64,000 nucleotides of DNA, taken from assembly GCF_007474605.1 (NCBI RefSeq), contig NZ_VHKL01000003.1, positions 347,156 through 411,155 on the forward strand, written 5' to 3'. Position 1 is the first letter of the stretch. Every line of letters begins with the position of its first letter. The position numbers and the translations under genes were made by a program. This DNA is from Rhodoligotrophos appendicifer (GTDB taxonomy: Bacteria > Pseudomonadota > Alphaproteobacteria > Rhizobiales > Im1). The notes below the pieces were generated by a model. It ran no database searches and had not been told where the DNA came from. It worked only from the letters and a program-made list of their open reading frames with translations. Of this stretch, positions 3,681 through 26,431 are shown piece after piece.

Positions 3681-4682
3681 TCACCCATAGGCCTGGCCCA
3701 GCACATCGATCACCACGTCCGCGCCGTCATAGGTCAAGAGGTAGCGGTCCTTTTCATGGGCGCCGCTGCTCACCACCGGTTTGCTCCCGCCGGCCGCCTG
3801 CCAGGCCGAGGGCCAGGCGAAGCTCCGTCCTCCCGTGGCATCCTGCTTCACGACCAGCAGCAGCTGCCCGCCAGAGGCCGGCCAGTTCGTCACCGAAAGC
3901 ACGGCGACATTGGCCGTGAGCGTCGCCTCCGCATGCTGCCCGTCGGCATAGTCGATGGCCAATGTTCCGGCAGCGAGGGCCGGCCATTGGCGCGACAAGG
4001 CATGCGCCCCCGTGAAGCCAGACGCGATCGCCAACGCCCCGCTCCCCCGGTCGACGCTGAGCGCGTCATGCCAGCTTGACCCGTCGCTGCTGACCTTGAG
4101 GTGCAGGTCGTCGTCGCCCGTCAGCCCGAGTTCCGCCCGACCCGAATAGCCGCTCTGGAACAGCAGCGACGCGGTGTCCGCCGCGCTCTCCTTGTTCATC
4201 GTATAGCGCAGATCACCGTCCCCGCCCTCGCTCACGGTCTTGGCCGTGAACAGCGCGGCATTGAGCTTCGCCGCCAGGGGAGTGCTCCCATCCGCCACCG
4301 TCCCGATGCCGAGCAGCGCAATATCCTGCAGCGCTGCGGCGGAAATGGGCAGTCCGCCCCAGGCGGCACCGTCCCACACCAGCGCGAGGGTCTCGTCCGC
4401 CACCCAGGCGAGCCAGCCCTCCTGGGGCGCATGGAACATCCAGGCCCCGGCCTGGAAGGCAGCGATCTCGTTGCCGTGCCCTGACCAGAGGCCCGTAGCC
4501 CCCGGTGCGATCAGATAGCGGTCGCCCTCCCCCGGACTGCCGGGGGGTGCCGTGAGGTCGCGGTCGAGCACCGCCAGCTGCACCAGCGTGTCCAGGCGGT
4601 CCAAGGCGTCGTTCACCGTCACATGTTTCTGCGCTTGTGCGGCCTCGAGATAAGGCAGCCGCAGATGCTCGCTCTCAGACAT
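3681..4682 (-). CDS. DUF2793 protein, GTA tail-end gene
   Basis: A 333-residue protein. The first 110 residues are a DUF2793-type domain (LPYLEAAQAQKHVTVNDAL near the N terminus, then the tryptophan-rich GAWMFHAPQEGWLAW), a module found in GTA and phage tail proteins. The remainder is beta-rich and fibre-like. The ATG at 4682 overlaps the end of gp15, so it is co-translated with the gp15 C-terminal part. It probably decorates the GTA baseplate or forms a fibre attached to it. The frame continues upstream, but the earlier starts lie deep within gp15 and are less likely. Confidence 0.78.
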   Translation of the reverse strand: MSESEHLRLPYLEAAQAQKHVTVNDALDRLDTLVQLAVLDRDLTAPPGSPGEGDRYLIAPGATGLWSGHGNEIAAFQAGAWMFHAPQEGWLAWVADETLALVWDGAAWGGLPISAAALQDIALLGIGTVADGSTPLAAKLNAALFTAKTVSEGGDGDLRYTMNKESAADTASLLFQSGYSGRAELGLTGDDDLHLKVSSDGSSWHDALSVDRGSGALAIASGFTGAHALSRQWPALAAGTLAIDYADGQHAEATLTANVAVLSVTNWPASGGQLLLVVKQDATGGRSFAWPSAWQAAGGSKPVVSSGAHEKDRYLLTYDGADVVIDVLGQAYG

Positions 4683-6861
4683 GGATGATCTCCCTGCGCG
4701 CCGTGCCCCGGCCATAGGTCGCCGAGACCTGATAGACCTTCACGGCAAAATCATTGGCGGGCGTCCCGAAATCGGCCGCTTGCTGCGCGGCTTCGTATCG
4801 GACGGAGGCCTCGTCCACGGCCAGCGTCCTGACCACCTCATCCGATCCGTCGAGCACCTCGACCACATAGGCCTCCCGCTCTTCGGCCAGGGCCACCTCC
4901 GCGAGCGCCCAATTGTCCCCGCCGCGGCGGGTACGGCGGACCCACTGGATCAGGATGTCTCCGGAGGCCTCCCGGCGCCCGCGAAGATGGGCGGGACTGT
5001 AGGGCCGGAGCCCCGTCCCGGAAAAGGCATGCTCCAGGGTCAGATAGGTGTCGGCGCCGATGTCGTCGCCGGCCGGACCGGCGCGATAATGATATGGCAG
5101 CCCCACATCGGCGGCTTGCATGGCAACCGGCACGACCGCTCCATCCAGGATCAGACAGCGCGCACCGGCAGCGATCGAAGCGGCCATCTCCCCCTCGCTG
5201 CCGAACTGGCCGCGCAACAGCATCGACAAGGCCCAGCTCTGGGGCCCGACCAGCTCGGCATCGGCAAATTGCAAGACCTCCCAGCGCCCTTCGCCCGTCT
5301 CGATCGCCAGCAGATTGCCGCCGCCGAAGACGGCAAGCTCCGGCAGGGACGCGGCAGCCCCTCCATAGAGGCGCAGGACCAGCCGGTTGCCGCGGTCCCA
5401 GCGCCCGGTGGGTCCCGCTGCGAAAGCCTCCAGGCTCTCGCCGGCCGCCGCGGGCGCCTGCAGCACCGTGTTCAGCGCATATCCGCTGCCTTGGGGCGAG
5501 CGATAGAGGTGGACGGCGCCCGGCCAGGGCTTGGCATAGGCCGCCACATAGCCGGCCCAGTCCGGGTCCTGATCGCGCAGTCGCGGCAGGTCGAGGAAGC
5601 CGATCGCCGGCGGCCCGGTGACCGGGGCGACCGCACCGCCCAGCGCGCCCCCATGGCGCTGCGCCACATAGGCGGAGGCGAAGACATCGGCATCGAAGGC
5701 CCGCGCCTCGCAGGTCCGAGAGGTGAGTTCGCTCACCCGCTCGATCCGGAGAATGCGGGATCCCGACGCCCTCTCGAGCTTCACCACGTCGCCGGGATCG
5801 ATGCGCAGTCGCGACGGCGGCAGCGTGAAGCCGGCCTGTTCCCGGGCGACCCAGAGATCCTGCAGCCAGCTGTCCGCGGCGGCTTCGGCGCGTCCCTGAT
5901 CCAGGACCACCGCGACCTCTGCCTGCGCCACCCGCGCCGTCGCCCCCGGGACTCTTCGCGCCTCAGCCACGGCGGCGCGGTAATCCGCATTGCCCTCGAT
6001 GAAGCGGAGTTTCGCCACATCGGGCAGCTCCGTCTCCTGCCGCCGGGTCAGCGCGAGAATGTGCCCGTCGCCGCCGCCCTCCACGAGTTCGTCCTCGCTC
6101 ACCGTGATCGCCGGCGCCAATCCCTGTTTCGAGACGGCACGGATCGCAGTCCCCGTCTCCACCATGTCGAAGCCGAACATCACCTCCAGCGGCTGCACCG
6201 CATCGCGGAACGACAGCACCCGGTCGAGGACATAGCCATCCACGGTCCCGTGCAGGCCGGCGGTATCGAGATCCGTGAACCCATAATCCTGACCCAGCGC
6301 CTGCAGCAGGTCCGCCAGCGAGACGGCGGTCGCCCGGCCGGAGATCCAGTGCCCCTGGCTCCAATTCTCCGCATCCCCCCAGGCGCTGCGATCGATGGGA
6401 AACGACGGAAACGGCCGCGCATCCCACGCCCAGACGGCCATCCGCTCCGCATCGATCATGGGACCGTCATAGCTGCCGGTCGGATTGTTGCCCGCATCGG
6501 GGTGCCAGTACCGGTGCACGGCCTCCAGATAGGACCGCTGGATCGTGTCGTCGCGGCCCCCGGTGGAGAAGGGCGGCAAGCCCGAATCCGATGATTTGGC
6601 ATCGAAGAACAGGTTTGGCTGGTTCGTGCCCTTGTCGATGGCGGGGCAGCCGCATTCGACGAAGCGGATGGGCTTGCTCTGGGCGCTCCAGGCGGTGGCG
6701 GAGACCGCCTCCACCCCGCCCGGCCTGTCGTGATGCGGCTGCCCCCACCAGCTCCTCAGATCCTTGTTGCGGAAGACCCAGGGCTTCCCATAAGCGACAT
6801 CCGTGATCGGCGACCGCCCCTGCGCCCGCCTTGCCTCGGCATCGGCGTAGAACCAATCATA
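4675..6861 (-). pseudogene. GTA host-specificity protein gp15, C-terminal part (severed)
   Basis: This is the 3' part of the gp15 gene, about 728 codons from the YDWF core to the stop. Just after the core it reads YADAEARRAQGRSPITD and YGKPWVFRNKDL, the end of the GTA TIM-barrel domain, followed by the phage-tail-like and C-terminal regions of gp15. The frame at 6861 is the same as that of the N-terminal part at 22127. On the element side an in-frame TAA (6868-6870) sits immediately before the core, so this part has no natural start; the first in-frame start-like codon is near 6714. It is unlikely to give useful protein unless the element is excised. Confidence 0.93.
6849..6861. other. Left attachment core (attL)
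   Basis: AGAACCAATCATA, identical to 22115-22127. On the minus strand it reads TAT GAT TGG TTC T, encoding YDWF of gp15. Flanking bases differ on both sides (T before and C after here; A before and A after at the right end), so the shared core is exactly 13 bp. Confidence 0.9.
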
Positions 6862-7175
6862 CGAGTTTTACCCACGTAACCCCTTGATTTTAAACAATTC
6901 TGTCTTTGAGCGGACCGGTATTTTTGCCTACCCTGGCGCCTTCTTAATGCCCTATGTTCAAATATCCGATCAGCTCAGGGCATAATCTCTGATTGATGTA
7001 CTGCAGACAGGCTATGAAGCACCTGAGTGACGAAGTTCCCTTCTGATATTTATCTTGTTATAAATACAAACACCCAATGTTTGAAAATATAACAACACAT
7101 CTAGTGCGAATATTTAAGTAGACTCCGTAATTAATTGCATCTAGTCTCCCCTTATCGAAGTAGAGGGGACGAAAC
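6862..7175. other. Left-end non-coding region of the element, with arm-type repeat
   Basis: There is no convincing gene in this 314-base, AT-rich stretch. It holds TTTTTGCCTACCCT at 6921-6934, exactly repeated near the right end at 22036-22049 in the same orientation and at a similar distance from the core (60 and 66 bases). GTTATAAAT also occurs near both ends (about 7048 and 22065). Such paired sites fit arm-type integrase or bending-protein sites. Confidence 0.6.
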
Positions 7176-7364
7176 ATGACGAATGAATTTGAGGTTGGGT
7201 CTGTGTTGCCTGATTCAGTTTGCGGGCAACTCGTGCGCGCTGCTTACGATCTAAACGAACAGGTGTCGAAACCTCAGACGGTGGTGGGATATAGGGAGAC
7301 ACGGCGATTGGCTGCTCGGTTGCAGGCATGTCTGGATATTGCGCAAATCGAAGCGCGCGAGTGA
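7176..7364 (+). CDS. Small hypothetical protein near attL
   Basis: A 62-residue protein, mostly helical and acidic in its N-terminal half, with no recognised domain. The start has a good ribosome site (AGGGGA, 7 bases before ATG). It is the only plus-strand gene at the left end and runs into a strong hairpin shared with the convergent minus-strand operon. Its place beside the attachment site is one where excision factors are often encoded, but there is no visible helix-turn-helix to support that. An overlapping minus-strand frame lacks a plausible start site. Confidence 0.55.
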   Translation: MTNEFEVGSVLPDSVCGQLVRAAYDLNEQVSKPQTVVGYRETRRLAARLQACLDIAQIEARE

Positions 7365-7375
7365 GATGCGAGCTT

Positions 7376-7406
7376 CTGGGGGCGCCGAGGAGTGCGGCGC
7401 CCCCAG
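7376..7406. terminator. Bidirectional hairpin terminator
   Basis: CTGGGGGCGCC (7376-7386) and GGCGCCCCCAG (7396-7406) form a perfect 11-bp stem with a 9-base loop. It lies 12 bases after the stop of the plus-strand gene and 2 bases after the stop of the convergent minus-strand operon, so it probably ends both transcripts. Confidence 0.7.
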
Positions 7407-7408
7407 GC

Positions 7409-7762
7409 TCAGCCTTCGTCCTCTCCTACCAGTGCGAAAGAGTAGGGTCGGGCGAAATATGCAAATCTGAGTCTGTAACCGTTGGGGACATCGTCCTTCG
7501 TGCTGGTGCAGTCAAAACGGATCGCAATGTCGAAGTTGGGAGACTTAAGATCGGCAGACTGGAAGTCCGCCAAGAGTTCGAAGATGTGTCTCTTGTCCGT
7601 CAGCTCCACCGTAAATGACCCGGAGTTGCTGGCCTTGTTCCAGGTCGGATCTGTCCATCCGTCGAGGTGTGCGCCGTAGTCGGTCGCGTCGGTTGCGAAC
7701 CAGATATGGTCCCAGACGCGATCGTTGATTTCTTCGAGTTCGCGCCGCGTGTAGGCGGTCAC
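7409..7762 (-). CDS. Hypothetical protein of the element's minus-strand operon
   Basis: A 117-residue protein of unknown function. It is rich in aromatic residues and looks like a compact globular fold with a beta-rich second half (GSFTVELTDKRHIFELLADF, YRLRFAYFARPYSFALV). It is the last gene of a five- or six-gene operon and overlaps the preceding gene by 4 bp (ATGA). No membrane segment or known motif is visible. Confidence 0.65.
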   Translation of the reverse strand: MTAYTRRELEEINDRVWDHIWFATDATDYGAHLDGWTDPTWNKASNSGSFTVELTDKRHIFELLADFQSADLKSPNFDIAIRFDCTSTKDDVPNGYRLRFAYFARPYSFALVGEDEG

Positions 7763-7983
7763 CGGGCGGCCTCCTGACTGAGTAAGAAGTCCAATTCGGC
7801 TTCCAGGGTGACAACAGCTGCTAAGTGATTGTCACGGTGAATGATGTACTCTTCAATTATGCGTTGATACCCGGCATGCCGATCTCTGATGCTTTGGATT
7901 TGCCGCCGGATCTTTGCTATTTTTTCCTCAGTCGTGGGAGGGACGCGCTTGGGCCTGCGGGTCCGCAACTTACTCACTGGCAT
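7759..7983 (-). CDS. Small coiled-coil hypothetical protein
   Basis: A 74-residue protein with a basic N terminus (KLRTRRPKRVPP) and an almost continuous helical region with heptad-like spacing (EKIAKIRRQIQSIRDRHAG onward). It could be a nucleic-acid-associated or assembly protein, but no family is recognised. It overlaps the following gene by 4 bp and the preceding one by 14 bp, so it belongs to a tightly packed operon. Confidence 0.6.
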   Translation of the reverse strand: MPVSKLRTRRPKRVPPTTEEKIAKIRRQIQSIRDRHAGYQRIIEEYIIHRDNHLAAVVTLEAELDFLLSQEAAR

Positions 7984-8191
7984 CGGCGAGCCTCGCCCTT
8001 AGTCTCTCGACGCGTTCAAGCGCCTGGGTGCGATGGGCGCCTGAACTCCCAGCGGCCATGTGCGTCCAATAGAGGATCGCTTGCTCAGTGGTGAATCGCT
8101 CGGGCATCGTTGAGTGTTTTCTGGTGGTGGTCCAAGAGGTGGCTGAGTCGAGTCCGCCGATGCACGCCTGAGGTTTGTTGGTGGTGGTCAT
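7970..8191 (-). CDS. Small hypothetical protein
   Basis: A 73-residue product with no recognised motif. The second half (ERFTTEQAILYWTHM to the end) looks like a folded helical domain, while the first 28 residues are low in structure, so a start at the internal Met29 is possible. It overlaps the preceding gene by 4 bp (ATGA), which favours the longer form. Function unknown. Confidence 0.5.
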   Translation of the reverse strand: MTTTNKPQACIGGLDSATSWTTTRKHSTMPERFTTEQAILYWTHMAAGSSGAHRTQALERVERLRARLADASE

Positions 8192-8712
8192 GATTCAGTC
8201 CTCTGAGCCAGGGCATCTGCAGCTTGCTGATAATTGGCGAGATCCATTCGCTCGGCTGGCGACATGGGCTGATCGATAGTCCTTTGCTCGTCCTGCAGCG
8301 AACGGCGAAGCCTGAGAATTTCCACCATGTCGGTCTGGCGTAAGGTGTTCGCTGGTCTCTCCTCGATGGCTCTGATCTGGCTAAGGAGGTGATCGCGGCG
8401 GGTCGCTGCGGATGTCGCCCGGTCGGCTGCATCTTTCTCGATCCGTGTGATCTGTTGGGTGAGAGCGATACCGGCGCGGCGGTCCTGCGCTGTCCTGGAG
8501 AGGACGATGCGTTCCAGATGTTCCTGAGCCAGTGAAGCGGCGTCATCTTCTGCAAAGGCGCCCCAAGGGTCGGCGAAGATGTCCGCGATGAGGGCTTGGC
8601 GGTTCTCTAGCGGTAGGTTTCCATCGATCGTCTTGAGGTCCTTGGAGGCAAGGATCTCCTCGATGCGATGGACTAGGAGGCGACGGTTGCGGAGCTTGAG
8701 AGCGTCGCTCAT
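8188..8712 (-). CDS. Hypothetical helical protein
   Basis: A 174-residue, highly charged, predicted all-helical protein with a central coiled-coil-like stretch (about 70-140) and no membrane segment. Two Arg/Leu-rich helices, VEILRLRRSLQDEQRTI and RNRRLLVHRIEEIL, suggest protein or nucleic-acid contacts. It resembles phage accessory or scaffold-like proteins in composition only. Its stop-start overlaps on both sides show co-translation with its neighbours. Confidence 0.6.
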   Translation of the reverse strand: MSDALKLRNRRLLVHRIEEILASKDLKTIDGNLPLENRQALIADIFADPWGAFAEDDAASLAQEHLERIVLSRTAQDRRAGIALTQQITRIEKDAADRATSAATRRDHLLSQIRAIEERPANTLRQTDMVEILRLRRSLQDEQRTIDQPMSPAERMDLANYQQAADALAQRTES

Positions 8713-8951
8713 TAGTTCGCGAGCCTGTACGGCGTGAGCGCCGGGCTGTTGTGCATAACGGCGAGCAATTCGGCATCTGGGAGTTGCTCCCTGCGAGCGC
8801 CGGTAAATAGGGCGACCGCGACGTACTCATCAGCGCAAACGATGGGGATAATTTCCTCGATTCTGGTCACGTCGAGTTTTGCAACTGGACAAAAATCGCG
8901 GATGCGACGGGCAATAAGTCTTGCATGGGCGTTTTGCATAGCGGTGGGCAT
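8712..8951 (-). CDS. Small hypothetical protein
   Basis: A 79-residue product with no recognised domain. It starts 2 bases after the stop of the ribbon-helix-helix gene and ends where the next gene begins (TAATG), so it belongs to the same operon. Composition is ordinary for a soluble protein. Confidence 0.55.
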   Translation of the reverse strand: MPTAMQNAHARLIARRIRDFCPVAKLDVTRIEEIIPIVCADEYVAVALFTGARREQLPDAELLAVMHNSPALTPYRLAN

Positions 8952-8953
8952 GA

Positions 8954-9145
8954 TTAATTAGTTTCCTTGCTTGCGAAATATTCGCGAAGAGCGGCGACAA
9001 TAATGGATTGCTGAGACACTGAGTGGTGCACGGCCTGTAGGCGCAATCGGACTACAAGATCAAATGGCAAAGCTACGCTGGTTGGGAGAGTTCCCTTCCG
9101 GGAGTGGTTGGACCTGGTATTGTTCTTGATGGATCGAGTCTTCAT
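8954..9145 (-). CDS. Ribbon-helix-helix (CopG/Arc-type) DNA-binding protein
   Basis: A 63-residue protein with a basic N terminus and a ribbon-helix-helix pattern: a strand (TSVALPFDLV), then helix (RLRLQAVHHSV) and helix (SQQSIIVAALREYFASK). As the first gene of the leftward operon, it is placed to repress both that operon and the divergent replication gene. A GTG start at 9190 is possible, but it lacks a ribosome site and falls inside the inverted-repeat operator, so I prefer the ATG at 9145. The ribosome site for this ATG is also weak. Confidence 0.6.
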   Translation of the reverse strand: MKTRSIKNNTRSNHSRKGTLPTSVALPFDLVVRLRLQAVHHSVSQQSIIVAALREYFASKETN

Positions 9146-9185
9146 TTGCGGACAATGAGGAGTTCTCCCTGAAAAGTCAATGTGA

Positions 9186-9274
9186 GCCACTTGAATATTA
9201 ATAGTGGCGTAAATTGATCAAGCAAAGGGGATGAAGCTGGAGGCGGGTTACTGCTGCGCCACTATTTAGTGGCG
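9186..9274. promoter_or_regulatory. Operator cluster in the divergent control region
   Basis: The half-site TAGTGGCG/CGCCACTA recurs: GCCACT at 9186-9191 facing TAGTGGCG at 9202-9209, and a perfect palindrome CGCCACTA-TT-TAGTGGCG at 9257-9274. The sites lie between the leftward ribbon-helix-helix operon and the rightward primase-helicase gene. Paired short inverted sites are typical of ribbon-helix-helix operators, so autoregulation is likely though unproved. Confidence 0.6.
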
Positions 9275-9285
9275 TGGTTCAGGGA

Positions 9286-9321
9286 TTGACTTCCGAACCC
9301 ACATGTGCGATAGGAAGTCAA
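9286..9321 (+). promoter_or_regulatory. Inverted repeat in the leader of the replication gene
   Basis: TTGACTTCC (9286-9294) and GGAAGTCAA (9313-9321) are perfect 9-bp inverted repeats 18 bases apart. They could be a second operator overlapping a promoter (TTGAC resembles a -35 box) or an RNA hairpin about 165 bases before the start codon. Confidence 0.4.
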
Positions 9322-9486
9322 GATGGTAAAACATCTCGGTTTGCCGCCAGAAGCGATGAACTGGATCAACTCTCTGTGACCGGCTTGGACGGCGAATTGC
9401 AAACGCCGTCCTACTACCCCGTCAGTCATGGAGCCTACAGATACCCCAATCAGCCGGAGGTGAAGCACCGCACATGGAGAACTATA

Positions 9487-11598
9487 ATGAACACGCACGC
9501 CCAAGATTCATTTCAAGATAATTCGCGCGCCGATAAGGCCGCCAACGACAATTCCAAAAGCCAACATATTCCAGGCGACGAGCCGACAGGATTTAAGTCG
9601 GACACTCCTCCCCCAGATGACAAACCGAAGTATGTAACCGGCGACCTTCTCCGCTTTGAACGGGAGTTCTCCTCCACGTTCGACGCAGAAACTTTCATGC
9701 GCTTGCATCACCGCAAGGGGGATCTAGGCTATCGACCGGGCGCCGACGAGCAAGGGTACTTCTGGCAGTGCCCAAACGAGACAGCTCATGCTGACCAATC
9801 CTTTGACCGTCCCACATCCTTCTATGTGATCAACGCTTCGGATAACGCCGATTCTGGATTTGAGATGGGCTGCCCTGATCCGGCATGTGCTCACTTGAAA
9901 CGGAACGATTTCCTCGACCAGTTTTGCGTCAAGGACAAGGTCACGATGGAGGCGCTAGAGAGCTTCGTGGCTCCGGCTGAAGATGAAAACGAGGATGAGG
10001 ATGAGGCAGACGAGGACACCGTCTCCATCCAGGATTACATACGCTCTAGAGTGACCGGGACTCGCGACCCCGAGCAGGTTTCAAATGTCTGCCGTGGTAT
10101 ATTGATTGGTCCGCCCCACCCCCCGTTGGTCATAGGGAACGCGATCAAACTCATCGCCTCACTGTCTGGTTTTACGGAAACTGAAGTAAAAGCAGAGTTT
10201 GATAGACTTCGGAAATCTTCCGAAAAAATTCACGAGGCCAAAAATTCCAAATCGAAACATAATGATGAAGAGTTTGATTTAGAAGATGCATATGAAAAAC
10301 GTTACAACAAACGATATGTTTTTATTATCCAAGACAAGAAGCATTACGTCCTCCGAGTCCCCCAGAGCCGCGATGAGACCTACGAACTGTACTCACCGCA
10401 AGCTTTTTTTGATTTATATCTATGGGATTCATATTATTACGAAGATAGTTCAGGGAAAACGCGAAAAGGTTATGTGGCGCGAGCTTGGTATGAAACTGAG
10501 CACAGACTCAATTTCCCAAGCGGCATCGGTTTTTTCCCTGATGGCAAGATCCATAAAGGGTATTGGAACGAGTATTGCGGTCTAGCCTTCGAGCCGAACA
10601 AGGCTGGGAGTTGGGATAAGCTAAAAACTCACATGTTGGACAACATCTGTCAGGGTGACAAAGTACATTATGAGTGGCTGATGTCCTGGATGGCGTTCAA
10701 GGTTCAGCACCCCGATAAGAAGCCCGAGAGTGCCGTTGTACTGATAGGCGAAAAGGGGGTAGGCAAATCAAAACTGTTCGAGTGGTACGCTGAGATTTTC
10801 AAGCCTCATGCAATCATTGCGACACAGCAAGAACATATCACCGGGCGGTTCAATGACCACCTCCGCAAGGCGCTCCTTCTTGTTTGTGAAGAGTCAATAT
10901 GGGCTGGAAATCACAAGGATCATGGGGCTCTAAAGAATCTCATCACGGGCGGCAAAGTACAATACGAAGCGAAATTTAAAACCGCTGGACAGGGTGAAAG
11001 CTATACAGCATTAGCCTTCATCTCCAATGAGGCATGGGTTGTCCCTGCATCTCTCAGGGAGCGCCGTTACTTCGTCCTAGGTGTGGGTGATCAAAGGCGC
11101 GGTGACACGAAGTACTTTGGTGATATCGATCTGCAGATGAAATCTGGAGGAAAGGAAGCCATGCTTGCCGAACTTCTCGAGTGGGATTTCAGTAAGGCTA
11201 ACCTGAGGAAGCCCATCAAGACGAAATGGTTGGTTGAACAGGCTGAGCAGAGCATGGAGCCGCACGAGGCCTGGATAGTAGAGGCTTTACGCTCAGGAGA
11301 GTTCCTTTCGGACTGCAGGAGGATAGAACTCAATTGGCAGGATGAGACTGAGGTTAGTAAGGACGATGCCCTTCAGCTCTATTGGAGCTATATCGACAGC
11401 AGCTATCCCACCGGCACTAAACGCAAGCTATCACGGGTAGCCTTGGGAAGGGCGCTTCATGCACTAATTCCTGGCTTGGTATCAGACCGGCAGAAAAGCG
11501 ACGGATCGCGTCCATACTTCCTCCCTCCGGCAAAGGACATGCAAACTCATTTTGAGAAAGACGGCCTGGAGTTCGAGCCTCGGAAGAGAGCCGCCTAA
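9487..11598 (+). CDS. Replicative primase-helicase, DUF5906/NrS-1-type
   Basis: A 703-residue protein. The C-terminal half is an SF3/DUF5906-type helicase domain: Walker A GEKGVGKS at about 421-428, then LLVCEESIW as the Walker B region, and FISNEAWVVPASLRERRYF as the sensor and arginine-finger region. The N-terminal part contains an acidic linker (DENEDEDEADED) and cysteines that may bind zinc. The start at 9487 is chosen for its ribosome site (GGAGA); the frame is open further upstream. Proteins of this kind initiate replication of phages and satellites, and the adjacent repeats at 11.6-11.9 kb are a plausible origin. Confidence 0.82.
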   Translation: MNTHAQDSFQDNSRADKAANDNSKSQHIPGDEPTGFKSDTPPPDDKPKYVTGDLLRFEREFSSTFDAETFMRLHHRKGDLGYRPGADEQGYFWQCPNETAHADQSFDRPTSFYVINASDNADSGFEMGCPDPACAHLKRNDFLDQFCVKDKVTMEALESFVAPAEDENEDEDEADEDTVSIQDYIRSRVTGTRDPEQVSNVCRGILIGPPHPPLVIGNAIKLIASLSGFTETEVKAEFDRLRKSSEKIHEAKNSKSKHNDEEFDLEDAYEKRYNKRYVFIIQDKKHYVLRVPQSRDETYELYSPQAFFDLYLWDSYYYEDSSGKTRKGYVARAWYETEHRLNFPSGIGFFPDGKIHKGYWNEYCGLAFEPNKAGSWDKLKTHMLDNICQGDKVHYEWLMSWMAFKVQHPDKKPESAVVLIGEKGVGKSKLFEWYAEIFKPHAIIATQQEHITGRFNDHLRKALLLVCEESIWAGNHKDHGALKNLITGGKVQYEAKFKTAGQGESYTALAFISNEAWVVPASLRERRYFVLGVGDQRRGDTKYFGDIDLQMKSGGKEAMLAELLEWDFSKANLRKPIKTKWLVEQAEQSMEPHEAWIVEALRSGEFLSDCRRIELNWQDETEVSKDDALQLYWSYIDSSYPTGTKRKLSRVALGRALHALIPGLVSDRQKSDGSRPYFLPPAKDMQTHFEKDGLEFEPRKRAA

Positions 11599-11860
11599 CA
11601 GTATCCAAACTGAAAGCAACTGGATGCAATTTCAAACTGTTAGACTTTTTTCGTTCAAAATCAACGTTTTAACAGGTTAACAGTATAAACAGGCTAGCAA
11701 TCGCTATTGGTAACCGCTCCCCGACTGAGGGTGTGTGTTATCTCTCTTTGATCCGTATATAGTGAATCTACCTGTTAAACATGTTAATCCTGTTAAGAGT
11801 CTGAAAAGAAACGAAAAATCGCCAACAGGTTTCTTAACAGGTTCCCGCGCTGCCTGTTAA
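11596..11860. other. Repeat-rich candidate replication origin
   Basis: This AT-rich gap after the primase-helicase carries the 7-mer TTAACAG or its complement CTGTTAA at 11669, 11677, 11772, 11790, 11834 and 11854, with near copies at 11596, 11637, 11781 and 11823. Three copies in 11772-11796 are spaced exactly 9 bases apart. Multiple short sites in both orientations beside a replication gene resemble iterons or initiator boxes. No gene is visible here. Confidence 0.6.
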
Positions 11861-11882
11861 GGAATGAAAGCGGTGACCCGTA

Positions 11883-12479
11883 CTAATAGACGTTTATAAC
11901 AGCTACCGGAGTGAACTGCTCTCGCCCCTCTCTAGCGAAGCCCTCCATGACGTGCATGCTCCACTTTAAGCCGGGATTTTGGGGAAGCGCAGGGATATTA
12001 TACAGTTCGCGAATATCGCTCGCCAGAGTGTGAGCTTGCAGACCCATCCTCGCATAACCTCGCGCTAGAGCGTCGTCGGCCTCTTCGCGGCCACCAAACT
12101 CCGCCATTTCCTTAATCGCATTCCATTCCAACGTGGTTTCCGTAGAGAGATTCAAAAGGCGTGCGGATAGAGCAAGGTCTAGGTATTTCCAGGAATTGTC
12201 TTCTGGAAACTGAGGTATACTCCATACCTTACCCAGAGGCGCCCCTTCCTCTCCTTTACTGAAGAGATGATTGTTGTAATCGGAAAGAGCTTGTCCCGTG
12301 TCGATAATAAATCGATCAAGGGAATTGGTGATCCTTAGTCCGAGGTATGTCGCATCTATCTGCTGAGCCTTCTTAATAAAATAGTGTTCTTTCCAGTACC
12401 CGAGGCCAAAAGTAAAAAGAGCGGAGATAAGACCGCTCCCCAAGCCTAAGGCTATGATTTGTGGCCATTCCATGCTCAA
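11883..12479 (-). CDS. Membrane-anchored hypothetical protein
   Basis: A 198-residue protein with one N-terminal transmembrane helix (about 6-28, PQIIALGLGSGLISALFTFG) and a large, soluble, mostly helical remainder. No enzyme motif is recognised. It is transcribed opposite to its neighbours, as cargo genes often are. Such membrane-anchored products on integrated elements are sometimes superinfection-exclusion or defence proteins, but nothing here shows that. Starts at 12479 or 12473 are both possible. Confidence 0.6.
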   Translation of the reverse strand: MSMEWPQIIALGLGSGLISALFTFGLGYWKEHYFIKKAQQIDATYLGLRITNSLDRFIIDTGQALSDYNNHLFSKGEEGAPLGKVWSIPQFPEDNSWKYLDLALSARLLNLSTETTLEWNAIKEMAEFGGREEADDALARGYARMGLQAHTLASDIRELYNIPALPQNPGLKWSMHVMEGFAREGREQFTPVAVINVY

Positions 12480-12509
12480 CTCTCGAAAAATCTCGGGGAG
12501 GACGAAACT

Positions 12510-12761: not shown

Positions 12762-12789
12762 ATTTCTGCAAATCTGGAATATAAAACCT

Positions 12790-14473: not shown

Positions 14474-14547
14474 TTTCTAAAATAGAAATATGATTTCTAT
14501 TTCATTTTAGTCCCTCGGCATCGTATTTAGCCGATCGAGTTCAACAT

Positions 14548-17253: not shown

Positions 17254-17283
17254 TCATAAAAAGAAAGGTATATATTACACATT

Positions 17284-18732
17284 ATGTTCTTAGGCACGTC
17301 AGCAGCCGATCGTCTCGGCGCAGGTATTTACAGCCCACAATTTGCACACCCCGACCTGAGTTATTGGTCGCCGATCTGGAAAAGCATTCGAGACGCCTAC
17401 CTCGGCGAGATCGAGGTAAAGCGGAAAGGCACAAACTACCTCCCGCGCCTCGACAACATGACCACCAGCGAATACGCCGCCTATCTCGATCGAACCGCAT
17501 TCTACAACATGGTGGCTCGGACTGCGAACGGGATGGTCGGAAGGCTGTTCCAGCGGCCTCCTAAAACTGAGGGCGTACCTTCCAGGCTTAGCCTAAACGA
17601 CGTGACCCTCAACGGTCAGTCTGTTGACGCCTTAGCCCGTGAGATCGCTCAGGAAGTGGTTCTTACGGGACGAGTCGGCGTGATGCTGGACGTCGATACA
17701 GAGCGAGACAGCATCGGCTACTTTAACGTGTATTCGGCTGAAAACATTCTCGACTGGCGCACCGAGCGAGTCGGCGGGAAGATCCAACTCACCTACGTCG
17801 TCCTGAGAGAAATTGAGACGAATGCGGACCGTCTACAGATGCAGAGGTACCGGACAGTCTATCGCGTCTTGAGCTTGGATAAGGAGGCGGACGGAAGCCG
17901 GGTCTACCGCTCGTATCTCCATAGAAATGAAAACCTCGGGACGGAGGCCGACGAGGTGTCGACAGCCCTCAATCGAGGCACACCTCTAGATTACATCCCC
18001 TTCAAGTTCTTCGGCCCAAATAATAACGATCCGGGCATTGATAAACCGCCGATCCTGGACATCGTCACCCTGAACTACGCTCATTACAAAGCCAGTGCTC
18101 ACCTGGAGCATGGGCGCTTCTACACGGCGAGTCCGGTCTACTACGTCCCAGTCGGACCAGGGAGCGACAGCAGCTCCACGTCTTACACTTTGGGACCCAG
18201 CGTTGTCTGGGAGGTCGACACTGAAAGCAGCCCTGGAATTCTCGAATTCAACGGCAGCGGCCTAATGTATCTGGAAAACTCCCTAAAGGAAAAGGAGGCA
18301 ATGGTCGCCGCTCTCGGTGGCAAGCTTGCCGGGATACAGCCTGCAGCCGCCTCCGATTCCGATGCGTCGGCAAAGGTCAAATCGGCGGGGGAGCATTCCA
18401 CACTCATCGGCATTGCGGAATCCATCGAAACGGGGCTTACCGATCTCCTCCAATGGTGGGCGCATTGGCAGGATGTCTATGACCCATCCGGCATCACGTT
18501 CACTTTGACCCGCGCGTTCGGTTTCGATTTTGACGCAGCTGGTGCTCGTGAGTGGAGGGCAATCCATGCCATGTATAGTGATAAAATTATCACAGTAGAG
18601 GTGCTCTTCGAGTACCTCCAACGCGCCGCGATCGTCCCGGACTGGATGACATTAGCTGAGTTCAGCAACGCACTCCGAGATCCAGCCTCATTCCCGGGGC
18701 TGGACCTCACACAAGATCGGCTTGCGGCATGA
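17284..18732 (+). CDS. DUF4055 phage portal-like protein
   Basis: A 482-residue protein of the DUF4055 type, which serves as portal in several siphoviruses. Supporting segments are an N-terminal YLPRLDNMTTSEYAAYLDRT, a central NVYSAENILDWRTERVGG, LNYAHYKASAHLEHGRFY, and a C-terminal helical region. Its family differs from the GTA portal at 31508-32683. The stop overlaps the start of the connector gene (ATGA). No terminase or capsid gene flanks it, which is abnormal for a complete phage. Confidence 0.82.
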   Translation: MFLGTSAADRLGAGIYSPQFAHPDLSYWSPIWKSIRDAYLGEIEVKRKGTNYLPRLDNMTTSEYAAYLDRTAFYNMVARTANGMVGRLFQRPPKTEGVPSRLSLNDVTLNGQSVDALAREIAQEVVLTGRVGVMLDVDTERDSIGYFNVYSAENILDWRTERVGGKIQLTYVVLREIETNADRLQMQRYRTVYRVLSLDKEADGSRVYRSYLHRNENLGTEADEVSTALNRGTPLDYIPFKFFGPNNNDPGIDKPPILDIVTLNYAHYKASAHLEHGRFYTASPVYYVPVGPGSDSSSTSYTLGPSVVWEVDTESSPGILEFNGSGLMYLENSLKEKEAMVAALGGKLAGIQPAAASDSDASAKVKSAGEHSTLIGIAESIETGLTDLLQWWAHWQDVYDPSGITFTLTRAFGFDFDAAGAREWRAIHAMYSDKIITVEVLFEYLQRAAIVPDWMTLAEFSNALRDPASFPGLDLTQDRLAA

Positions 18733-19265
18733 GTTTCATCGCTGAAAACCGATTCATCGTCGAGGACGGAACCGGCCTCGCGGATGCGACCTCCTATGCC
18801 ACAGTCGAGGATGCCGACGACTATCTCGTGGTCAACCCTCACGCATGGTCTGCCTGGGCTGACTTACCAGCCTCCGCCAAGGAATACCTTCTGAGATGGG
18901 CGACGAGGGAGCTCGACCAGCGCGCAAGATGGCAAGGCCGCAAGACTGTTGCGAACTCAGCACTAGCGTGGCCCAGGGCGTTCGTCCCAGGCACCGAGTG
19001 CCGGTTCCTCGCCTCGGATGCGGTCCCTCTCCAGGTCAAGCAAGCCACCATCGAGATGGCGCGGCTCCTCCTCGACAGAGATCCTGGCACCGATCGCGGG
19101 CAGGACGGACTGAAAGAACTTGAAGTGGATGTCATCAAACTCGTCTTCGATGAGAGCTACAGGCTTCCCGAAGTCCCGCGATCAGTGATTTACCTCCTGC
19201 GAGGTTTGGTGGTCTCATTTTCGAATGGAACCAAAACCCAATCCGCAACGATTGTCCGCGCATGA
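18729..19265 (+). CDS. Head-tail connector, DnaT-like family
   Basis: A 178-residue protein of the phage family labelled DnaT-like, now understood as a head-to-tail connector type. Typical features are the opening VEDGTGLADATSYATVEDADDYL, the repeated tryptophans, RWATRELDQRARWQGRK, and QATIEMARLLLDRD. It overlaps the portal gene and the next gene by 4 bp each, so portal, connector and head closure are translated together. Confidence 0.8.
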   Translation: MSFIAENRFIVEDGTGLADATSYATVEDADDYLVVNPHAWSAWADLPASAKEYLLRWATRELDQRARWQGRKTVANSALAWPRAFVPGTECRFLASDAVPLQVKQATIEMARLLLDRDPGTDRGQDGLKELEVDVIKLVFDESYRLPEVPRSVIYLLRGLVVSFSNGTKTQSATIVRA

Positions 19266-19627
19266 TGGTTTTGCGTAATCTCGTCAAACAACAAGTAGTG
19301 AATGCGTTCGAGAGCATCGGCTATCTGGTCGAGAGCATCACGTATAAACACGTGACGTTGGGTGCTTATGACCCCACATCCGACACCGTAGCGACCACGG
19401 TCCAGACGTTCACTATTCCTGCCGTCTTGGTCCAATTTAAACTTACTGAGTTGGACACATCGATCATCGTTCAAACAGATCGTAAATGTTTGATTCCTGC
19501 ACTATCTCTGCCGATCACCCCTACCGAAAACGACCAGATCATAGCTCTCGGAAGGACATGGAATGTCCAAGCCATTCTAGGTGTCCCAGGTGCCTCTTTT
19601 CATATCTTACACACCCGAGAGGTCTGA
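19262..19627 (+). CDS. Probable head closure (neck) protein
   Basis: A 121-residue, beta-rich protein. Its size, its position between the connector and the tail terminator, and the segment NDQIIALGRTWNVQAILGVPG (typical of small stopper folds) all point to a head-completion protein. The ATG lies at 19262, overlapping the connector stop. Function is inferred mostly from order. Confidence 0.65.
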   Translation: MMVLRNLVKQQVVNAFESIGYLVESITYKHVTLGAYDPTSDTVATTVQTFTIPAVLVQFKLTELDTSIIVQTDRKCLIPALSLPITPTENDQIIALGRTWNVQAILGVPGASFHILHTREV

Positions 19628-19629
19628 CA

Positions 19630-20031
19630 GTGTCGATGGAATCTATGAGGTCCTACGTTGCCTCGACACTAGCGGCGGCACTACCGGACACGCCGACCCA
19701 TTGGGCGAACCAGCTTTTCGCCCAACCGGATGGTCTCTTTCTTTCGGTGAGCATGAACGATGGCGAATCGCTGCGAGCCAACTTGGGAGCCCAGTTCACT
19801 GTTCGGCACGTTGGAAGACTTGAGGTCACCGTGTTCGTACCTCAGGACACGGGTACCCGTGCTCTATACCTAGCAGGCGAGACGGTAGGGCGGACATTCC
19901 AGGAACTGGGGGCAAACCTACCAGATAGTGCAAGGCTGCTTTTCAGGACGCCGTCTTACAGTGACGGCGGCACTGTCGGCGGCTTCTATACCCTAGTCGT
20001 TCGCATACCGTATCTGAGAGACGAGCGCTAA
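19630..20031 (+). CDS. Tail terminator-like protein (DUF4128 type)
   Basis: A product of about 133 residues starting at GTG 19630 (ATG at 19636 also possible), two bases after the head-closure gene. Features typical of phage tail terminators are a short N-terminal helix, THWANQLFAQPDGLFLSVSM and a central beta region (FTVRHVGRLEVTVFVPQDTG), ending GGFYTLVVRIPYL. Terminators cap the tail tube at the neck. It is the last virion gene of the element and is followed by strong hairpins. Confidence 0.72.
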   Translation: MSMESMRSYVASTLAAALPDTPTHWANQLFAQPDGLFLSVSMNDGESLRANLGAQFTVRHVGRLEVTVFVPQDTGTRALYLAGETVGRTFQELGANLPDSARLLFRTPSYSDGGTVGGFYTLVVRIPYLRDER

Positions 20032-20045
20032 AGTAATGCATAGGC

Positions 20046-20120
20046 GGGGTGGAGAAAGTGAGGAGCAACCTCCTTCTCGCCACCCCTTACCTCTGACCTC
20101 ATAAGCGAGGAGCCCTTTTT
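20046..20120 (+). terminator. Terminator region of the virion gene block
   Basis: GGGGTGGAGAA (20046-20056) pairs with TTCT-CG-CCACCCC (20074-20086), with an inner GAGG/CCTC stem, 14 bases after the terminator-gene stop. A second small stem (CCTC 20097-20100, GAGG 20107-20110) precedes a T5 run at 20116-20120. Confidence 0.6.
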
Positions 20121-20127
20121 AAGCTAG

Positions 20128-20331
20128 TTACTGCTCCAGCGCCGGTGCTGTGCCGTCGTCCTGCTCTACAAGGATGGGCGCCGTGTAACCCTGCGCACGA
20201 GCGTTCAACGACCAAGTCCTTGCCCGATCAACGGCGTCTTGCTGATCCGGGAAGTTGTCATAGTCGCGACCATTGCACCGAATTGCCCAGGCACCCTTTA
20301 GTTTCCGAACGATGAGCCGGTTGTCTCGCAT
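20128..20331 (-). CDS. DUF2188-like small protein
   Basis: A 67-residue protein resembling DUF2188: an antiparallel beta start with GAWAIRCNGRDYDNFPDQQDA, then a helix and a final strand. The start at 20331 is chosen because CAGGGAG stands 9 bases upstream; a longer frame exists. It lies between the virion block and the integrase on the minus strand. Function unknown. Confidence 0.65.
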   Translation of the reverse strand: MRDNRLIVRKLKGAWAIRCNGRDYDNFPDQQDAVDRARTWSLNARAQGYTAPILVEQDDGTAPALEQ

Positions 20332-20428
20332 TGGTTTTACTCCCTGTTTACGAATCAACTCAACCTTTTGTCGAAGGTTGCGTTTCCTTCGACTTTAAAG
20401 TGAACAGGGTTGAGTGCTTTGCACGGGT

Positions 20429-22006
20429 CTAATCCTCACTCTCAAACTCACTGACCTCGCGCCTAGGGTCTAATGGATCGATCTTAGCCATCCATCCTGC
20501 CAGCCGTGTGACCATCGCCCCAGCGTCACCATATCCTCTGGCAACTTTACGATCGCCGGAGGAGTGGCCCATTATGCGCTCGACCACTTCCTCCGGTGCC
20601 TCGATGAGGCGACTAGAGTCTTTGAATGTGTGGCGGAGGCTGTGGACCACGACCCGTTTGTCCGTAATCCCTGCCCTTCCGCGAATGAGTTTCGATAAAC
20701 GCTTCCCTATACTCGCGTACCGGCGCCCTTGTCCGTTGGGTTTTAGATCGAACAAATAAGGACTATTGACCGCCCTCGCTGTGAAATCCAGGAATCCATC
20801 GGCAAGCAATTTCGGATGCACCGGGACAGTCCTAACCGATGAGGCGGTTTTGACTTTGTTGGTTCCGAGATCATGGATGTGGATAACGTGGACACCGCCT
20901 ATCCTCTTTATGTCGCCCGGCGCCAACTGGGCGATTTCTTCGCCCCTCGCCCCCGTGTAGATAAGGACTCTCAGAAACCATAGCGCCTGATCGTCGTCTT
21001 TCCATTCGTCCTCGGCTTTCACTAGGATGGTCTCTAACTCTGAGGGTGCTAAGGAACGTCGCTTATTCGCCACGGTCTCAGCATGGCCCCCCTTCCCTCT
21101 GTGTATGCGGATATCGGATGCTGGATTAGACTCTATCAATCCTTCAGAAGCAGCGAAGCTTAGGAGAGCCTTCACACACCTCAAGTGCTTCGCCGCAGAC
21201 GAAGGAGCGAGTCTCTTCAGATTCTTCTTCTCCGCTATCGCCAGGAGTTTGGTAACCGACAGTCCCGCAGTCCCCTTCTGGTTTAAGTTCGGAAGGCGCG
21301 ACACAGTGTTACGGAAATCGCGGATATGATTTGCGCGTATGTCCGTGAGCCTCAGTCCAGGATTTAGTTCCTGGAAGAGCTTGGCAGATTGAAGGAACTG
21401 GATCCCGACGGAAGGCGACTTAGCCGCATACCAAAGAGGGTAAAGTCCCACCAGGGTCAAAGCCTCTTCCCCTGACTTTGCAGTTTTCTGATCCAGTTTG
21501 AGTTTCTTAAGCGTCTCGGTGTGTTTGGCTACCTGCCGGGCTTTAACGTCCGACTCCGCACGTAGCGCAGCGATCGTGGCCTCTGACTCGTCCTCGTCCG
21601 CCTCTCCGTCCAGGTGCACGAGATCATGAAGCATTTCGGCTTTATAAGCGGCGCGTTCTCCGGAAGCTTGCCGATCCTTCACCCATTTGAGATAGCCCCT
21701 GACACCTCCCTCGGCATCTATGGCCTGACGCTCCTCGAAAGTAAGGGAAGGCAGAAGGGCTTCCGCTTCCTCAATCGGATCGGGCGCCCTCAATCTAATG
21801 ATGAGTCGATCGTGCCGGGCCGCAAGCTCGCGAGCTTTCGTTTGTGCGAGACGTTCATCGGATGTGTCCAGACTTACCTTCCAGCGCTTGCGCCTTACTT
21901 TGGACGCCACGTCTGGAGGGACAACCCGCAAATAATAGAGGTTAGTCGACTGCCCCAACTTATGGACGTAGTTGTTTTTGGATGCACGCATGAGGGCGAC
22001 TCGCAT
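20429..22006 (-). CDS. Tyrosine integrase
   Basis: A 525-residue integrase. The N-terminal 60 residues form a DUF6538-like arm-binding region, there is a central core-binding domain (about 195-295), and the catalytic domain carries Arg354 (IYTGARGEEI), His455 and Arg458 (HSLRHTF), His481 (IMGHSS) and Tyr492 (RGYGD). All catalytic residues are present, so it should be active. It lies 109 bases from the right core. A start at 21991 is possible. It is the enzyme expected to have placed the element in gp15 and to excise it, probably with a directionality factor not identified here. Confidence 0.93.
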   Translation of the reverse strand: MRVALMRASKNNYVHKLGQSTNLYYLRVVPPDVASKVRRKRWKVSLDTSDERLAQTKARELAARHDRLIIRLRAPDPIEEAEALLPSLTFEERQAIDAEGGVRGYLKWVKDRQASGERAAYKAEMLHDLVHLDGEADEDESEATIAALRAESDVKARQVAKHTETLKKLKLDQKTAKSGEEALTLVGLYPLWYAAKSPSVGIQFLQSAKLFQELNPGLRLTDIRANHIRDFRNTVSRLPNLNQKGTAGLSVTKLLAIAEKKNLKRLAPSSAAKHLRCVKALLSFAASEGLIESNPASDIRIHRGKGGHAETVANKRRSLAPSELETILVKAEDEWKDDDQALWFLRVLIYTGARGEEIAQLAPGDIKRIGGVHVIHIHDLGTNKVKTASSVRTVPVHPKLLADGFLDFTARAVNSPYLFDLKPNGQGRRYASIGKRLSKLIRGRAGITDKRVVVHSLRHTFKDSSRLIEAPEEVVERIMGHSSGDRKVARGYGDAGAMVTRLAGWMAKIDPLDPRREVSEFESED

Positions 22007-22018
22007 GTTCTATATTGC

Positions 22019-22049
22019 CTAGGTTTTTACCTAGGTTTTTGCCTACCCT
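22019..22049. repeat. Right-end arm-type repeats
   Basis: Imperfect tandem copies, CCTAGGTTTTTA, CCTAGGTTTTTG and CCTACCC, lie between the integrase start and the right core. The segment TTTTTGCCTACCCT (22036-22049) recurs exactly near the left end at 6921-6934. These fit integrase arm sites and could also overlap the integrase promoter. Confidence 0.55.
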
Positions 22050-22114
22050 CAACTTTTTTATACGTTATAAATCATAATGTTATAGAAGCTGCCCGCTTCA
22101 CGGGTCTAACGAAA

Positions 22115-22127
22115 AGAACCAATCATA
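22115..22127. other. Right attachment core (attR)
   Basis: The second copy of AGAACCAATCATA, identical to 6849-6861, in the same orientation. On the minus strand it begins exactly at codon 776 of gp15 (Tyr), after which the reading frame runs into the element and stops after FSLDP-type codons. Confidence 0.9.
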
Positions 22128-22682
22128 ATGTTCACCGCCTTCGATCTGCCCTTGCAGATAGTCCTGGGCATAGATCGTGACATGGCCGAGGTCGGGATCG
22201 AAATCGACATGATCCTGGCCCTCCCGCCAATCGGAGAGCGGCAGGTAATTGTCGATGCCCACGAAGTCGATGTCGCCATGGGCCCAGAGCGGATCGAGAT
22301 GGAAATGCACGTCGCCCGTGCCGTCGTCGGGCCTGTGACTGTGATATTCTGACCAATCCGCGGCATAGCTGATCTCCACATCCTCCCCGAGCAGCGTGCG
22401 GGCCTCCTCTGCGAGAGCCTGCAACCCGGCGACGAAGGGATAGCTGCCGGCGCCGTCGCGCAGCTGGGTCAGGCCCACCATCTCCGAGCCGATCAGGAAC
22501 GCATCCGCATTTGCGCCCTGGGCGAGGGCCGCATAATGCAGGATGAAGCGGCGGTAGGACCATTCCGCCGGTCCGGAATAATCGACACGCTCGTCCTCGG
22601 CGTCGAAGGAGAAGTCGGCCGCGGCGGCAGTGCCCAGGAAGGCGTCGACCTGCGTTGCCGCCGCCGCGGTCTTGTCGGCGGC

Positions 22683-23246
22683 CAGGGCGCCGGTTCCGCT
22701 ATTGGGGAAAAAGGTGGACAGCCCATGGCGCAGCGTGGCTTGCGGTCCCACGAAACGAGCCGTTCCCACCGCTGAATTCGCAGCCGTTGGAAAGGAGCCC
22801 ACCGCTCCGAAGGCGGGAAACAAATCGACGCGAAACGCGGTTCCGGCGGGATCCTCGAGATCGATCCACAGCCGCCGGAAATCTCCCTCCGTCTCCATTC
22901 CGGAGCCGTGCCGGGTGAGGCCTGCACCGCTGGTCAGCGCATTCACCTGGTCCGTGACCGGATTGTAGCGCAGCGTGACGGCATGGGTGGACAGCCTCGT
23001 GAACACGCGCAGGGCGGGGAACGCGACTGCGGCTGCATCCCGCTTCACATAGACCGACACCGTGGCGCGCTTGCCGATCAACGCGCTGACCGCAGAGGAC
23101 GCAAACCCCCCGGCACTTGTCGAGGCATCCTGCAGCACCAGCAGGTCGCTGCTGACGCCTGCGGGCGTGTCGCCGGCTTCCGGGGTCACCGTGACCGAGG
23201 ATTTGCTCCAGGCGCTGAGCGTCTCGGTGGTCGGCAGGAAATTCTG
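22683..23246 (-). other. Inserted carbohydrate-binding-like domain within gp15
   Basis: Residues 403-590 of the N-terminal part interrupt the usual GTA join between RITADPAPGR and ADKTAAAATQVDAFLG. The insert follows the pattern of a phage-tail beta-sandwich domain often linked to sugar binding: an opening NFLPTTETLSAWSKSSVTV, then KRATVSVYVKRD, GDFRRLWIDLEDP and a closing GPQATL. Without it the restored gp15 would be about 1315 residues, close to the R. capsulatus protein. Confidence 0.65.
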
Positions 23247-24468
23247 CCGCCCCGGCGCCGGATCGGCCGTGATCCGTCCCCGCCACGGATAGGCCGGCTG
23301 CGACGATGCTCCCGAATAGGGGTCGCTGAGGCCATTGTCTGCGGCGATGTCCATCATCAGGAAGGGCAGCACGGTCACGTGATAGCCCCGCTCCTTCAGC
23401 GCTCCCACCGCGCGAACGACGGAGGCGTCGTTGGGGGTGCCCCCGAAGGCCGGCCGTTCTGCGACCAGCGTCACCACCTCCGCCTCTTCCCGCGTCAGCC
23501 CCGCGACGCGCCAGGAGAGGGGAATGGTCTCCTTCTCCCCATTATCGACTTTCGGGCGGATGCTGCAGTCGGCGCAGCGCAGATCGTCGCCGAACCAGGC
23601 GACCACCAGGTTCACGGCTGCCAGATTCGGCAGCAGCGCCGCGAGGTGTTCGAGCGTGACCTCCCAGTCGCTGCCGGCCTGGACCAGATGCGCGTTCTCG
23701 GTCCCCACCGCGATCGTCCCCCAGCTGCCTTGGGTGACCTGCTTGACGGTATCCGGCTCGTAGCCGAATTCGGTGGCCCCGGGGATGAGATTGACGGCGC
23801 GGATCCGCTCCTCGACCCGTCCCGGCAGCACCTTGAACACTTCGAAATTGAGCTGCGGGATCCGGTTGCCGAAGGCCTCCAGCGGCATCCGCTCGAACAC
23901 GATATAGGCGGTGCCGCGATAGGCCGGTGCGCGGCCTGCCCCCTCCTTCGCCTCGATCAGCGCATCGGGAAGCTGTGCGTCATCGCCCTTGTGGATGCGG
24001 AAGCTGAAGCCGCCGAGCCCCACCTCCTTGCCATCGGCCCACATGCGGTTCACCGCGGCGATCTCGCCCTCGCACAGCGCCACCGCGAAATTTGCGTAAT
24101 AGCGATAGGTGATGCGGGTCGATGTCGCCCCGTCGATGAAGAGAAAGCCGCCACTTTCGGTGGTGTCCTTGTCGATCACCTCTTCCAGCCGCGTCGCCCA
24201 GATCATCTGCCCGCCGACGCGCACCCGGCCATAGGCGCGGGGGATGGGAGCGCCCTCCGTGGCCGAGAGCACATCCAGCTCGGTGAGCCGCGGACCGACC
24301 TGCGTCGAGCCCGAGCCGCCGCCGAACAGCGCGTTGTCGATGGCGCTCCCCGCCACGGCAGCGCCCACCTGCAGGAGGGTCGTGCCGATGGTGCTGAGGC
24401 CCATGGAGGAGCCGAGCGCCGAGGCGGCGGTGGTCAGCAGCAGCGATGCCATGGGGTCTCCTGAAGCC

Positions 24469-26400: not shown

Positions 26401-26431
26401 CGCCCGCTCCGTTATGTGCCTGCCCGCCGGG

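Follow-up and report, generated by a model that had tools for sequence, protein, structure and literature searches.

A probable phage-derived integrative element within the megatron gene of a gene transfer agent cluster in Rhodoligotrophos appendicifer

How did the baseplate gene of a gene transfer agent (GTA) come to lie in two pieces with other DNA between them, and could it be made whole again? This question is raised by a stretch of 64,000 nucleotides from Rhodoligotrophos appendicifer (contig NZ_VHKL01000003.1, positions 347,156 to 411,155), referred to below as the window, which carries on its minus strand the N-terminal (5′) part of the GTA megatron gene g15 (product gp15) at 22128–24452 and its C-terminal (3′) part at 4675–6861. 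We consider it very probable that a phage-derived integrative element inserted site-specifically into g15, by the mechanism proposed below. In an NCBIfam profile search each half alone exceeds the GTA_megatron equivalog cut-off of 800 bits, with 812.5 bits for the N-terminal and 842.2 bits for the C-terminal part. The 299 positions of the Pfam GTA_TIM family are divided between them, positions 1–150 falling in the N-terminal part and 145–299 in the C-terminal part, which then continues into Phage-tail_3 and Rcc01698_C. When compared with the megatron chain of RcGTA (6tba_8A), the N-terminal part matches residues 1–405 and 408–590 and the C-terminal part residues 585–1299, and the insertion point corresponds to residues 585–590. 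The identity of the split gene as g15, proposed in an initial annotation made from the sequence, is thereby backed by NCBIfam, Pfam, PHROGs and the solved RcGTA megatron.

The two parts meet the intervening DNA at the same short word. The initial annotation had placed a shared core in both gp15 halves, and identical copies of the 13-bp core AGAACCAATCATA are indeed found at 6849–6861 (left junction) and 22115–22127 (right junction, on the integrase side), 15,266 bp apart. These are the only two exact copies in the whole 5.59-Mb genome, and none of 100 shuffles of the sequence gave such a repeat. Joining 4675–6861 to 22128–24452 yields, on the minus strand, 1,503 codons followed by a stop with no internal stop codon, which agrees with the earlier proposal that recombination between the copies would give one open frame of about 1503 codons. 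The translation across the joined junction is EGGEHYDWFYADAEARRAQG, where the core encodes YDWF at codons 776–779 of the joined gene, a position within the TIM barrel of the peripheral domain. With the insertion in place, the 5′ half reads as a truncated open reading frame of 784 amino acids (22098–24452) that ends in YDWFFSLDP and a stop. Attachment at a tRNA gene was considered and rejected, as a tRNA scan of the window found no such gene.

The uninterrupted form of the site is seen in relatives. Both congeners compared (G002 and G003) carry unbroken megatron genes of ∼1,500 codons each. In nucleotide alignments, window positions 4839–6861 and 22115–28435 correspond to 7720–9742 and 9730–16033 of the G002 locus (L040), and window positions 4858–6861 and 22115–27868 correspond to 7757–9751 and 9739–15482 of the G003 locus (L041). 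The aligned stretches overlap by exactly 13 bp at the junction (L040 9730–9742, L041 9739–9751), so that the element can be delimited as 6862–22127 (15,266 bp) and the insertion is precise. The same overlap is found at 9372–9384 of L043, a second megatron copy of G002, where the alignment breaks as it does in L040. For the sister-genus genome (G001, L042), the nucleotide alignment ends short of the junction and the protein alignment is unbroken over it (residues 593–1501). An empty-site strain with a different junction had been named at the outset as the observation that would speak against insertion at this site; the congeneric species examined show the predicted junction in two genomes, and the empty-site comparison is also favourable in the second megatron copy of one of them. 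The insertion is further consistent with base composition, G+C content per kb being ∼0.47–0.59 in the element and ∼0.60–0.71 in the remainder of the window. As a separate observation, the second megatron of G002 (G002:C1:487500–507000) is a 1,322-codon frame that lies beside further GTA-like tail genes.

The right end of the element is adjoined by a gene for a DUF6538 tyrosine integrase of 525 amino acids (20429–22006, minus strand; Pfam and PHROGs matches), 108 bp from the right core. It holds the motifs TGAR (351), KVK (384), HSLRH (455), MGH (479) and GYG (491), which we take to contain the candidate catalytic residues of the R-K-HxxR-H-Y signature. The element thus has what is expected of an integrative element, namely an integrase gene with this signature next to one end and a short identical core at both ends that matches the empty site. 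A 14-bp word, TTTTTGCCTACCCT, is shared by the left end (6921–6934) and the right end (22036–22049) and may represent an arm-type integrase site; looser copies lie at 22015 and 22026, and still looser ones at three places within the element. A shared word of at least 14 bp arose in 1 of 2000 shuffles and in 4 of ∼2000 random pairs of element segments.

The reading of a site-specific insertion is built on what is observed: the boundaries are exact, relatives hold the empty site, the junction keeps the frame, the integrase looks intact and gp15 has no second region in the genome. In the mechanism that we propose, the element's DUF6538 tyrosine integrase would have recombined the 13-bp core of attP with its 13-bp counterpart in g15, breaking the gene at YDWF codons 776–779 and leaving at most a truncated megatron for as long as the element stays integrated. 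Because the core is duplicated in frame, the integrase could then reverse the event, alone or helped by a directionality factor, and rebuild g15 scarlessly. From the sequence, we infer that the integrase was the agent of integration and that the element may be able to excise. Several observations weigh against this account. No excisionase was recognised among the small open reading frames of the element scanned with Pfam and PHROGs, and inverted-repeat half-sites around attP agree in at best 6 of 10 bases. Half-sites around attB agree in 8 of 10 bases and were dropped as evidence, since 53 of 2000 shuffles did equally well. The element is also known from one copy, so that its mobility is deduced from a single example.

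The published RcGTA domain scheme (PMC7296036) assigns megatron residues 230–744 to the peripheral, 745–984 to the central and 985–1304 to the fibre-binding domain; an insertion at residues 585–590 therefore leaves a product without the central and fibre-binding domains. Such a protein should be unable to form the baseplate core as described there, and while the element stays the host would not be expected to produce functional GTA particles. The search for gp15 regions in the window genome matched only the two halves, with no second gp15 that could be recognised there.

The element itself appears to be rare. Short exact peptide patterns of the integrase found no other copy among genome contigs, and at E ≤ 1e-60 there was no match in the three other genomes of the family. 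At E ≤ 1e-50, with at most three candidates per genome scored among the matches listed, one other of 397 genomes of the order (the window genome included in this number) holds an integrase match (G051, 38% identical), on a contig whose recognisable genes, judged by eye from the list of reading frames, are porin- or transport-like with no GTA gene among them; within the class, one other of 385 genomes does so (G490, 34% identical), with an internal stop (L068, G490:C30). The portal protein of the element was matched in no other of the 397 genomes of the order, and the primase in one other of 387 (33% identical), both at E ≤ 1e-60. Among viral contigs, each of four element proteins matched only the window genome's own IMG/VR record, which is letter-identical over the stretches fetched and is therefore not independent of it. 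In plasmids and phages the integrase found matches of less than 60% identity throughout, none of them covering 80% of it.

The target, on the other hand, is widespread as a protein and variable as DNA. The gp15 region around the site is present in 263 of the 397 sampled genomes of the order (the window genome counted in both numbers), and among the matches listed, to about E = 2e-57, all except that of the window genome (G000) cross the insertion point uninterrupted. This fits the earlier view that the middle of this gene is an unusual choice of attachment site. The core lies at the same position in relatives, but its 13 bases differ: in the 30 best-scoring gene copies of relatives, 7 to 12 of the 13 positions match and no copy (0 of 30) matches at all 13. 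The DNA target is therefore specific to this lineage rather than a broadly common attB, while the protein motif at the site is fairly conserved.

The cargo of the element is consistent with descent from a phage. On its plus strand lie a phage primase-helicase (DUF5906, 9274–11598; the P4-family primase C-terminal model scores below its cut-off), a serine resolvase/invertase (13488–14087), a tape measure protein (TMP_3, 14848–17253), a portal protein (DUF4055, phrog_145, 17284–18732) and the head-tail adaptor Ad1 (DnaT_2, phrog_477, 18729–19265), the last four with Pfam and PHROGs matches. These are followed by the head closure protein Hc1 (phrog_161, 19262–19627), matched in PHROGs with no Pfam match, and a tail terminator (phrog_179, PF13554, 19627–20031; Pfam and PHROGs matches) whose start codon is provisional. 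On the minus strand, a protein of 198 amino acids (11883–12479), with no match in Pfam, PHROGs or NCBIfam, is a candidate member of the anti-phage defence family PDC-S67 (E 4.4e-16). Several small open reading frames belong to no recognised family. Terminase and capsid gave no match among the reading frames of the element scanned, the frames at 7141–7329, 12511–12762 and 14165–14473 standing outside the Pfam and PHROGs scan. The full gene set of a temperate phage (terminase, capsid, tail, lysis) was thus not found, lysis genes not having been sought separately.

The morphogenesis genes resemble those of much larger phages. Identity to the Microcystis phage Mwe-JY26 (101 kb) is 46% for the portal, 57% for the adaptor, 45% for head closure, 36% for the tail terminator and 29.5% for the primase, and identity to RcXuper (148 kb) is 43%, 49% and 29% for the first three. 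The order adaptor, head closure, tail terminator is also that of Mwe-JY26, which has one extra gene before the terminator. Both phages differ from the element in having genomes 7 to 10 times longer with annotated capsid genes, and Mwe-JY26 also has terminase genes; its annotated tyrosine integrase gave no match to that of the element at E up to 0.01. RcXuper carries portal, capsid and adaptor genes in that order, followed by the tape measure. The element instead has its tape measure gene ahead of the portal, and no capsid gene separates portal from adaptor. In view of this arrangement, and as no capsid gene was recognised, the element may be taken for a mosaic of such a phage or for a derivative of it left by deletion, and it is probably a defective prophage derived by deletion from a siphophage. 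The tape measure shows only distant likeness to phage records, none of which covers 80% of it. Elsewhere in the window genome, G000:C9:241766–243394 encodes a distant second tape measure (34% and 32% identical over two stretches), perhaps from another prophage.

How active the element is, and for whose benefit, allows finer readings, which lie within the account of a phage-derived insertion and are not alternatives to it. The strongest, which is a serious possibility if not quite a probable one, is that the element integrated once, lost its genes for excision and mobility and left g15 permanently inactive, so that the cluster will decay. This would explain why the reading frames scanned yielded no recognisable terminase, capsid or excisionase, why the tape measure stands before the portal, unlike in RcXuper, as a deletion or rearrangement would leave it, and why only one copy is known. 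However, open and family-matched frames remain for the integrase, primase and resolvase, and g15 retains 1,503 codons without frameshift or stop and with no clear rise in rate (see below), although a recent one-way insertion would look alike. A regulated switch similar to active lysogeny, in which the element would excise when GTAs are made and reinsert thereafter, giving the host control of GTA production, would require just the scarless in-frame junction and preserved g15 found here; we nevertheless regard it as improbable, since no second insertion at the site was found among the matches listed, and no link to GTA regulation was seen, although none was sought.

A satellite way of life, in which the element would live off the GTA or a helper phage and redirect the particles of that other system with the portal, neck and tape measure proteins it encodes, is very improbable. 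Phage satellites have a general range of size and content within which the element falls, with its integrase, primase, few morphogenesis genes and candidate defence gene. One source describes satellites as 7 to 20 kb long and without structural genes. The element carries such genes, and its portal and adaptor resemble those of large siphophages. The portal has no second match in the window genome and the matches of the tape measure there, on contig C9, are weak and partial, although the helper could possibly be a phage with unrelated proteins. Moreover, the element destroys the baseplate gene of the very GTA that it would exploit, and there are no sister elements in the samples and hence no conserved satellite gene set. 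That an assembly artefact joined the g15 halves to unrelated DNA is hardly credible and was rejected on the base-exact empty-site alignments of relatives, for although the genome is a draft of 33 contigs and its IMG/VR copy is not independent, both junctions lie within one contig of more than 420 kb and the break falls on a 13-bp repeat, too short for mis-joining, beside an integrase gene.

The GTA cluster around the insertion otherwise has open frames in its recognised genes. Its remaining head-tail genes occupy 24469–34094 on the minus strand, where the frames for terminase, portal, protease, capsid, adaptor, head closure, tail terminator, major tail protein and tape measure are open and match their families. 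Three further open frames precede g15, which PHROGs names as glycoside hydrolase, tail assembly and minor tail protein and which, from their position, are presumably the distal tail, hub and peptidase genes; several short frames have no family match. A tail-fibre-like gene, recognised by a family match, lies downstream of g15 (3681–4715, minus strand). The RcGTA-like set is thus present in the order terminase, portal, protease, capsid, neck, tail, hub and megatron, and the G+C content of the cluster resembles that of the remainder of the window. G003 and G001 share both the cluster and the left flank (window 1 to ∼2970) in collinear arrangement, which would favour a fixed, vertically inherited location over a recent prophage; in G002 (L040) the cluster matches, but the adjacent 7.7 kb on its left is unlike the left flank of the window. 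The chromosomal place of the cluster is therefore common to three of the four family genomes compared. RcGTA-like clusters are also reported within prophages (PMC11409702).

The cluster and the split gene are of the RcGTA kind (6tba/6teh), both halves of the gene passing the GTA_megatron cut-off, but two features set them apart from RcGTA: the break in the megatron, and an additional spike-fibre-like domain of that protein which RcGTA lacks. This GTA_spike_fiber-like domain (NF048003) occupies residues 400–589 of the N-terminal part (window 22686–23255). It is aligned through in the main megatron copies of both congeners, but the sister-genus genome, L043 (the second copy in G002), L057 and L062 do not have it. 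Apparently, a binding domain was gained by the baseplate protein within this genus.

Whether g15 has begun to decay can be judged from the relative number of changes in the window genome and each congener, with G001 as outgroup and the extra domain (residues 403–592) excluded. As raw counts without a significance test, the changes in three segments of gp15 are 25 to 24, 15 to 15 and 70 to 63 for the window genome against G002, and 18 to 26, 16 to 17 and 53 to 84 against G003. For the hub gene, one of seven other GTA genes compared, the window genome has the higher counts, at 20 to 10 and 27 to 10. As there is no clear excess of changes in gp15, which lacks visible decay, the insertion may be recent or the gene may still be maintained.

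How GTA production survives despite non-producing cheaters is an open question, and pseudogenised clusters are discussed as possible recent cheater lineages in a 2024 study (PMC10883770). The locus described here appears to be a natural non-producer allele that arose from a single event; the other GTA genes that were recognised show no visible damage, and there may be a way back. If so, producer, non-producer and revertant could be compared in one genetic background. It also indicates that a phage-derived element can have its attachment site within a GTA structural gene. It is conceivable, though unlikely, that the element acts as a reversible maker of cheaters, an on/off switch of a domesticated prophage. 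In that case a carrier lineage would be spared the cost of GTA production, which producers pay by lysis, might nonetheless go on taking up DNA from GTAs, and could return to production through scarless excision.

Elements that split genes are already known. One is phi10403S, a prophage that splits the Listeria gene comK and takes part in active lysogeny. Similarly, phiSa3 splits hlb in S. aureus, and in both cases precise excision restores the gene. Excision has been observed for both prophages, whereas the present element, in which neither a terminase nor a capsid gene was recognised, breaks a gene of a different system that itself derives from a phage. A close parallel is the mutS element of Vibrio splendidus and relatives (PMC5296598), a mobile element that lies in a coding gene at a fixed amino-acid motif and leaves an intact coding sequence upon excision in a subset of bacteria. 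It recurs in hundreds of bacteria and its excision has been observed, with a 2-bp deletion left behind in V. splendidus; the present element, by contrast, is known from a single genome, lies in a structural gene of a GTA and is only predicted to excise. Searches of the open-licence PMC literature yielded no account of an element integrated within a GTA gene, and none is described in the available parts of PMC11409702, PMC9836097, PMC3925955 and PMC10883770. A GTA baseplate gene as the target therefore appears to be new, within the limits of this literature search.

As regards class, phage-inducible chromosomal islands (PICI) and P4-like satellites are, like the element, small and integrative, with an integrase, a primase and a candidate defence gene. 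The element differs in having no conserved satellite gene set or known helper, and in carrying portal, neck and tape measure genes, and on these grounds it was not assigned to a satellite class.

Six low-scoring genomes of the order and four without a match were searched again for gp15. The megatron of G101 is whole but divergent. In G221, G258 and G368 the match begins only at about residue 804–822 of gp15, which we read as divergence, although an interruption is possible. The megatrons of G196 (L069) and G396:C31 show an apparent frame change ∼80 residues downstream of the site, possibly reflecting decaying GTA clusters or sequencing errors. In Faunimonas pinastri, two megatron copies (L063 and L064) lie on contigs that both end at residue 717 of the joined gp15, which suggests that a repeated stretch broke the assembly; both carry a frame change near residue 1184 and are possibly decaying copies.

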